From: Novosphingobium sp.
Lineage (GTDB): Bacteria > Pseudomonadota > Alphaproteobacteria > Sphingomonadales > Sphingomonadaceae
Assembly: GCA_015657645.1 (NCBI GenBank)
Contig: JACDQK010000153.1
Location: forward strand, 1 to 36,198
DNA: 36,198 bases
Direction of reading: 5' to 3'
Shown here in pieces: positions 34,445 through 35,840 of this stretch. The notes beneath the pieces were generated by a model. That model was not told the origin of the DNA and did not search any database. It saw nothing but the letters and a program-made list of their open reading frames with translations. The number at the start of each line of letters is the position of its first letter. The first letter of the stretch is position 1. Both the position numbers and the translations under genes were made by a program.

Positions 34445-35206
34445 TTAGCCCTCCTGACCTTCGGTCGCTTCGACGGCCGCGGTGTCTTCCGCGGGGGTGT
34501 CGGCAGCGGCCGGAGTTTCGTTGCTGTTGGCGGCACCCTTGATGCCGGCCGGATAAGGCGCTTCGGCGTGGCGCGAGACCTTCACCGAGTCCTTGACGGT
34601 CAGCCAGGAGTTCTTAGCGCCCGGGACCGAACCCTTGACGAAGATCAGGCCGCGCTCATCATCGACGCGGACGACTTCGAGGTTCTGCTGGGTGCGGTTG
34701 CGGTCACCCATGTGGCCGGCCATCTTCTTGTTCTTGAAGACGCGGCCCGGATCCTGGCGGTTACCCGTCGAACCGTGGGCACGGTGGCTGATCGAAACAC
34801 CGTGGGTGGCGCGCATACCGCCGAAACCCCAGCGCTTCATCGCGCCCTGGAAGCCCTTGCCCTGGGTCGTGCCGGCAACGTCGACCATCTGGCCCGGCAC
34901 GAAGTGCGAGGCAGCGATCGTTGCGCCAACTTCCAGCACGGCATCATCGGCCACGCGGAATTCGACAACCTGGGCCTTCAGGGGAACCTGAGCCTTTGCG
35001 AAATGTTCACGCTGCGGCTTGGCAACGTTCTTCTGCTTGGCACTGCCGGCACCCAGCTGAACCGCGACGTAGCCGTCGGTTTCAGCGGTGCGCACGGACA
35101 CCACCTGGCAATCTTCCAGCGCCAGGACGGTCACGGGCACATGCCGGCCGTCCTCCTGGAACAGGCGGGTCATCCCCACCTTCTTGGCGATCACGCCGGT
35201 ACGCAT
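34445..35206 (-). CDS. rplC: 50S ribosomal protein L3 with acidic/Ala-rich C-terminal extension
   Basis: [37 protein letters not shown]...[56 protein letters not shown]; tail [28 protein letters not shown]. Confidence 0.98.
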
Positions 35207-35464
35207 GATCCGTTCTCCTACAGAGGCCTGCGAGGACCATCCCCGCAGGCGTGTTCAGCCCGAAATGTGAAACGAGCCCCGTCCGGGCTGAGTGCCTCCG
35301 GGTGGAGGCGAGACGGGGGACGCTGGCCCGGATAAATCCGGAGGTATCCCTTGTGTCCCCGACTATTGCCGGGGCTCTGTCTCGTCGCGGATTTCCCTGC
35401 TCGGGTTCCGCTAGGAGCCGGGTCGAAACCCGGTAATCAGCGGCCCTTAGGCCGCGCCGGCTGA
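35207..35464 (-). promoter_or_regulatory. Highly structured rpsJ-rplC intergenic region; candidate cis-regulatory RNA leader
   Basis: At least eight inverted repeats in 258 nt, e.g. 35226-35232/35244-35250, 35256-35262/35284-35290, 35294-35299/35304-35309, 35328-35333/35336-35341, 35357-35361/35370-35374, 35418-35423/35428-35433, 35436-35440/35461-35465. GAGAC/GTCTC closing pair at 35310-35314/35379-35383. Confidence 0.6.
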
Positions 35465-35776
<312 letters not shown>

Positions 35777-35806
35777 TATGTCCTGCTACCGATGAGAAAG
35801 AGCAAC

Positions 35807-35820
35807 GGGGGCTTACCCCC
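35807..35820 (-). other. Small GC-only hairpin in the rpsJ 5' leader
   Basis: GGGGG-TAAG-CCCCC on the minus strand about 30 nt upstream of the rpsJ ATG. Confidence 0.7.
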
Positions 35821-35840
35821 AAACAAATTCGAGCCGCGCC

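Follow-up and report, generated by a model that had tools for sequence, protein, structure and literature searches.

The rpsJ-rplC spacer

In the Novosphingobium sp. sequence studied here, the genes rpsJ (S10) and rplC (L3) are separated by a gap of 258 nt (35207-35464, minus strand). Coordinates refer to the window, that is, the whole stretch of 36,198 nt that was analysed, and core position n corresponds to window position 35359-n. In the direction of transcription, the locus contains the following features:

35786..35803, minus strand: BoxA-like sequence GCUCUUUCUCAUCGGUAG just upstream of rpsJ, resembling the rrn-leader sequence GGCUCUUUGACAUUG of the family
35465-35776, minus strand: rpsJ (S10), upstream flank of the gap
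35359..35464, minus strand: variable 5' half of the spacer with the hairpins stressed in an earlier note; conservation limited to close relatives
35207..35358 (152 nt), minus strand: conserved structured RNA element upstream of rplC (covariance model R1, 145 bits, E 3e-38), one copy in its own genome
35347..35350, minus strand: P1 5' strand GGGA (core 9-12), pairing with UCCC 35317-35320; 382/387 cells paired
35343..35346, minus strand: UACC following the P1 5' strand, invariant in alignment A1
35328..35341, minus strand: P2 hairpin CCGGA-UUUA-UCCGG (core 18-31); 355/391 cells paired
35321..35324, minus strand: P1b 5' strand AGCG (core 35-38), partner CGUU 35271-35274 (core 85-88)
35317..35320, minus strand: P1 3' strand UCCC (core 39-42), the last two bases of which can instead extend P3 with GG 35277-35278
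35312..35316, minus strand: P3 5' strand CCGUC, stem 1 of the pseudoknot (core 43-47), partner GACGG 35279-35283 (core 76-80); 482/484 cells paired
35294..35309, minus strand: P4 hairpin GCCUCC-ACCC-GGAGGC in the P3 loop (core 50-65); 425/478 cells paired
35284..35291, minus strand: 5' strand of pseudoknot stem 2, UCAGCCCG (core 68-75)
35255..35262, minus strand: 3' strand of pseudoknot stem 2, CGGGCUGA (core 97-104); 710/768 cells of the stem paired
35226..35250, minus strand: P5 hairpin GCCUGCGGGGA-UGG-UCCUCGCAGGC (core 109-133); 773/825 cells paired
35220..35225, minus strand: CUC internal loop followed by UGU, which pairs with ACA 35252-35254 across a 1x3 internal loop
35215..35219, minus strand: rplC Shine-Dalgarno sequence AGGAG, the GAG of which could pair with CUC 35223-35225 (a short putative pairing)
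34445-35206, minus strand: rplC (L3), downstream flank of the gap

The earlier note, made from the letters of the window alone, had pointed to the length of this gap and to its dense structure. Its coordinates are confirmed, and the gap folds at -132.4 kcal/mol, compared with -107.1 +/- 5.8 for shuffled sequences (z = -4.4). The inverted repeats named there (CCCCG/CGGGG, GGGGAC/GTCCCC and GAGAC/GTCTC) are all present in the sequence. An Rfam 15 covariance-model search of the whole window, a scan the note had proposed, gave no match above gathering, and nothing meaningful appeared around the gap at E <= 10; a described leader was thus not matched. We found no second copy of the spacer in its own genome, which rules out a dispersed repeat. 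Neither a sigma-70 promoter nor an intrinsic terminator was found inside the window spacer, and a leader peptide can be discarded, since there is no closed ORF in it.

Spacers between rpsJ and rplC were gathered at four ranks, from the genus of the window up to its family, order and class. Among the long ones, the 3' 150 nt are strongly conserved and the 5' half is variable. The alignment of many spacers, likewise proposed in the earlier note, did reveal a conserved covarying structure, but one built from other pairings. The helices that had been taken as the meaningful structure are mostly confined to spacers closely related to that of the window. Of 165 homologous spacers, 10 have the GGGGAC-ACA arm before GGGATACC, 8 have the hairpin CCCCG..CGGGGACA, and 18 have GAGAC..GTCTC. 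The conserved structure occupies the 3' 152 nt of the gap and includes a pseudoknot that had been missed.

In the window (35359-35464, minus strand) and in four near relatives only, the 5' half carries an additional module, CUCCUAG-[hairpin]-GACGAGACAGAGCC. This module contains ACAGAG, the complement of the near-invariant CUCUGU that follows P5; as a conserved structure, this pairing was rejected because it is restricted to close relatives.

A conserved, covarying and pseudoknotted RNA

From 5' to 3', the element begins with the hairpin domain of P1 and P2. An H-type pseudoknot follows (P3 and stem 2, with P4 in the loop), then P5 and the Shine-Dalgarno sequence of rplC, which P5 adjoins. The pseudoknot is classified as H-type because the 5' strand of stem 2 directly abuts the 3' strand of P3. 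The covariance model R1, built on 33 sequences, recovered every one of the 98 sources in a wider set. Across these 98 members, 94.2% of cells are paired in an alignment that was fitted to the model for P1-P5 and anchored on CCC/GGG for the pseudoknot, compared with 78.4% in shuffled and 41-58% in slid versions. The covariation score was 0.408, against 0.148 for shuffled and 0.05-0.07 for slid versions, and 23 of 28 pairs show two-sided changes (control, 16.6).

Changes on both sides of a pair were counted on a protein tree made from two short proteins, on which the event counts depend; by this count, there are 12 two-sided changes in P1 and no one-sided ones (GGAA/UUCC, GAGA/UCUC, AGGA/UCCU), 37 in P2, 7 in P3 (where one pair shows U-A, A-U and C-G types), 108 in P4, 26 in stem 2 and 101 in P5. 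Stem 2 varies in a concerted manner (CGACCC/GGGUCG, CAACCC/GGGUUG, CCAACCC/GGGUUGG and CAUGGCCC/GGGCCAUG), and the swap test for the pseudoknot is weak, as CCC/GGG is invariant. P1b can form at least 3 bp in 92 of 98 members, with UGAG/CUCA variants that preserve pairing. Next to P5, CUC is kept in 96 of 98 members and the outer ACA/UGU pairs are paired in 249 of 294 cells, including AUA/UAU and UCA/UGA variants. G-U cells outnumber A-C cells by roughly 10:1 (353 versus 35), and the structure therefore lies on the transcribed strand. The element is a conserved, covarying, pseudoknotted RNA on that strand.

The UCCC strand of P1 has two possible partners. Its last two bases can extend P3 with GG 35277-35278 (core 81-82) in 93 of the 98 members; the others show a gap or a mismatch at a single pair. 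The P1b pairing continues beyond this extension. Since P1 and the P3 extension are both pairable in nearly all members, the choice between P1 and extended P3 may constitute a conserved potential switch. The idea of mutually exclusive helices put forward in the earlier note thus holds for these competing pairings, but not for the pair it proposed (GGGGAC/GTCCCC against CCCCG/CGGGG), which is not conserved.

R1 matches 319 of 401 genomes of the order, once per genome and always within the family of the window (the sphingomonads). It found no match in about 284 alphaproteobacteria of the class outside the family, under strict filters that can lose weak matches. Every member locus with both flanks readable has the arrangement rpsJ-element-rplC. 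Spacers with the element measure 164-391 nt (165 loci); in a set of 66 other alphaproteobacteria, the range is 1-150 nt and the median about 12. The P5 motif is more widespread than the whole: it occurs in 163 of 164 long and 16 of 17 short spacers of the family (shuffles, 5.2 and 0.1), and the short-spacer relatives (Sphingosinicella, Pacificimonas and others) have kept only P5 and CUC-UG. In three of them, the P5-CUC-UG hairpin is duplicated in tandem, as would be expected of a protein-binding module. Outside the family, the motif was seen in 3 of 29 other alphaproteobacterial spacers (shuffles, 0) and in none of 19 in a second set, and is at most sporadic there. The three are from Aminobacter, Asaia and Aureimonas, where the P5-like motif (CA-n-stem-CUC-UG) precedes rplC; it is possibly an older alphaproteobacterial form or a product of convergence.

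Output, ligand and alternative readings

At least 21 divergent members carry a hairpin followed by U5-U7, that is, an intrinsic terminator, between the pseudoknot and P5, directly behind the 3' strand of stem 2 and 53-64 nt before the rplC start. These terminators vary by lineage and the pseudoknot is retained. Because the genes that follow are essential and the hairpin leaves hardly any space for a promoter behind it, the predicted terminator of these lineages would have to be an attenuator with conditional readthrough. In the lineage of the window, the junction of P5 and the Shine-Dalgarno sequence points to translational control.

The earlier note had suspected a regulatory RNA upstream of rplC-rplD, and conservation, covariation, synteny, the absence from Rfam and the terminators of divergent members strongly support one. 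In our view, the element is likely to act in cis within the S10 operon as a ribosomal-protein leader, exerting feedback on L3-L4 and the rest of the operon. As a rule, a leader is bound by a protein from the operon under its control, and a protein with precedent is to be preferred (PMC7247131); by position and by precedent, including that of E. coli, L4 is the first candidate for the ligand and L3 the second. If one of the ribosomal proteins from the downstream genes is in excess (L4 being the most likely and L3 the next), it would bind the folded element and stabilise the pseudoknot/P5 state. In the window lineage, this state would block initiation of rplC translation, and in the divergent lineages it would favour the terminator. 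In the free element, the pairings that compete around UCCC and CUC/SD would permit readthrough and initiation. Being upstream of the element, rpsJ would escape this feedback loop. At the sequence level, the best local alignments of the element with 23S rRNA are within the range of shuffles; a CCUCUG match in 23S was dismissed as mimicry, since it is expected by chance.

A gene that escapes the loop might be controlled in another way. The consensus of the BoxA-like site upstream of rpsJ in the family is GCUCUUUC(U/G)CAUCGGUAG, and a comparison of GCUCUUUC(U/G)CAU at rpsJ with GGCUCUUUGACAUUG before 16S in two family genomes shows a BoxA-like sequence common to both. All 164 genomes of the family that have the element also have the site (161 of them under the strict pattern), and none of the 16 that lack the element has it. 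On the phylogeny, this co-occurrence corresponds to roughly a single joint gain (minimum changes, 3 and 4), and the Fisher value is thus not independent evidence. S10 is identical to NusE, and the site suggests that S10 (NusE) together with NusB may control rpsJ separately. A terminator-like hairpin, GGGGGUAAGCCCCC followed by UUGCUCUUUC (35806-35821, minus strand), directly overlaps the BoxA-like site. Tentatively, at a little less than even confidence, we read the S10 operon as having two independent feedback loops that arose together: NusB/S10 repressing rpsJ through BoxA, and a pseudoknotted leader that senses L4 or L3 and controls the genes from rplC onward, by translation block or by intrinsic termination depending on the lineage. 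The position of the leader after rpsJ would then be explained by the separate control of rpsJ.

It is conceivable that the spacer is structured but contains no sensor, and that it tunes the expression of rpsJ relative to rplC onward in a constitutive manner, as a partial terminator, a site of RNase processing or a stability barrier. The strong stable folds and the terminators of some members would agree with this, as would the short-spacer relatives, in which P5 alone suffices. However, the invariant UACC and CUC, the covarying pseudoknot and the conserved competing pairings exceed the needs of a passive stem, and the terminators differ between lineages while the pseudoknot is constant; we regard such a spacer as unlikely. 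A structure due to chance, or to the single insertion of a repeat element, has practically no probability left: GC-rich sequence does fold readily, but the z of -4.4 and the single copy per genome argue against it, and the covariation with its controls refutes it.

Two further readings accept regulation and differ in the signal. A riboswitch, or a sensor whose signal is not a ribosomal protein but, for instance, a small molecule, tRNA or ppGpp, could govern the S10 operon, and a compact pseudoknot with invariant bases, with output via a terminator or the Shine-Dalgarno sequence, does resemble riboswitch anatomy. Yet rplC is the sole gene context, there is one copy per genome, and ribosomal-protein operons are normally regulated by feedback from their own proteins, which makes this quite improbable. 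Still less probable is attenuation by translation of rpsJ, in which terminating or stalled ribosomes would select between helices and couple rplC to S10 synthesis. The element does follow the rpsJ stop codon, and the S10 gene has its own BoxA; however, the conserved core begins about 105 nt past that stop codon in the window, this distance is highly variable, and the window spacer contains no closed ORF. A leader responding to L4 or L3 remains the reading we prefer.

Comparison with known systems

Ribosomal-protein operons are textbook feedback systems, and most of their known leaders come from few phyla. If our reading is true, a large and well-sampled family has a leader class of its own inside the S10 operon, and S10, which doubles as the transcription factor NusE, is uncoupled from the remaining ribosomal proteins. 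The series found in nature, of P5 alone, P5 with pseudoknot, and pseudoknot with terminator, would make the evolution of a regulatory RNA and of its output directly testable. No description of the element was found in the literature searched, a search that supplements and subscription journals lay outside. Judged by sequence, we regard it as a putative leader class absent from Rfam 15 and from that literature, with the position and covariation of a ribosomal-protein leader.

In E. coli, the S10 leader, through which L4 autoregulates the operon, precedes rpsJ and has S10 under its control as well. The target operon is the same in the sphingomonads, and transcription attenuation and translation control are both plausible outputs. 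Their element differs in that it follows rpsJ, an internal position already remarked on in the earlier note, has another structure with a pseudoknot and gives no Rfam match. Other predicted leaders in this gene cluster are an L4 leader upstream of rplC in Archaeoglobi and an L2 leader upstream of rplB in Alphaproteobacteria (Eckert and Weinberg 2020, PMC7247131); by their description they are set apart, belonging to another lineage or another gene, and Table 1 of that paper has no leader upstream of rplC in bacteria. The S10 leader of Firmicutes (PMC7247131) and the rpsJ motif of Peptostreptococcaceae (PMC11109978) are also leaders of S10 operons, but they are located upstream of rpsJ and belong to another phylum. 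For rpsJ itself, a BoxA upstream of the gene was predicted to be autoregulatory through Nus factors in three gammaproteobacterial genera (Baniulyte 2017, PMC5725501). The BoxA-like site of the sphingomonads likewise lies close upstream of rpsJ (NusE), but here almost all members of an alphaproteobacterial family have the predicted site, and it is coupled to the rplC element.
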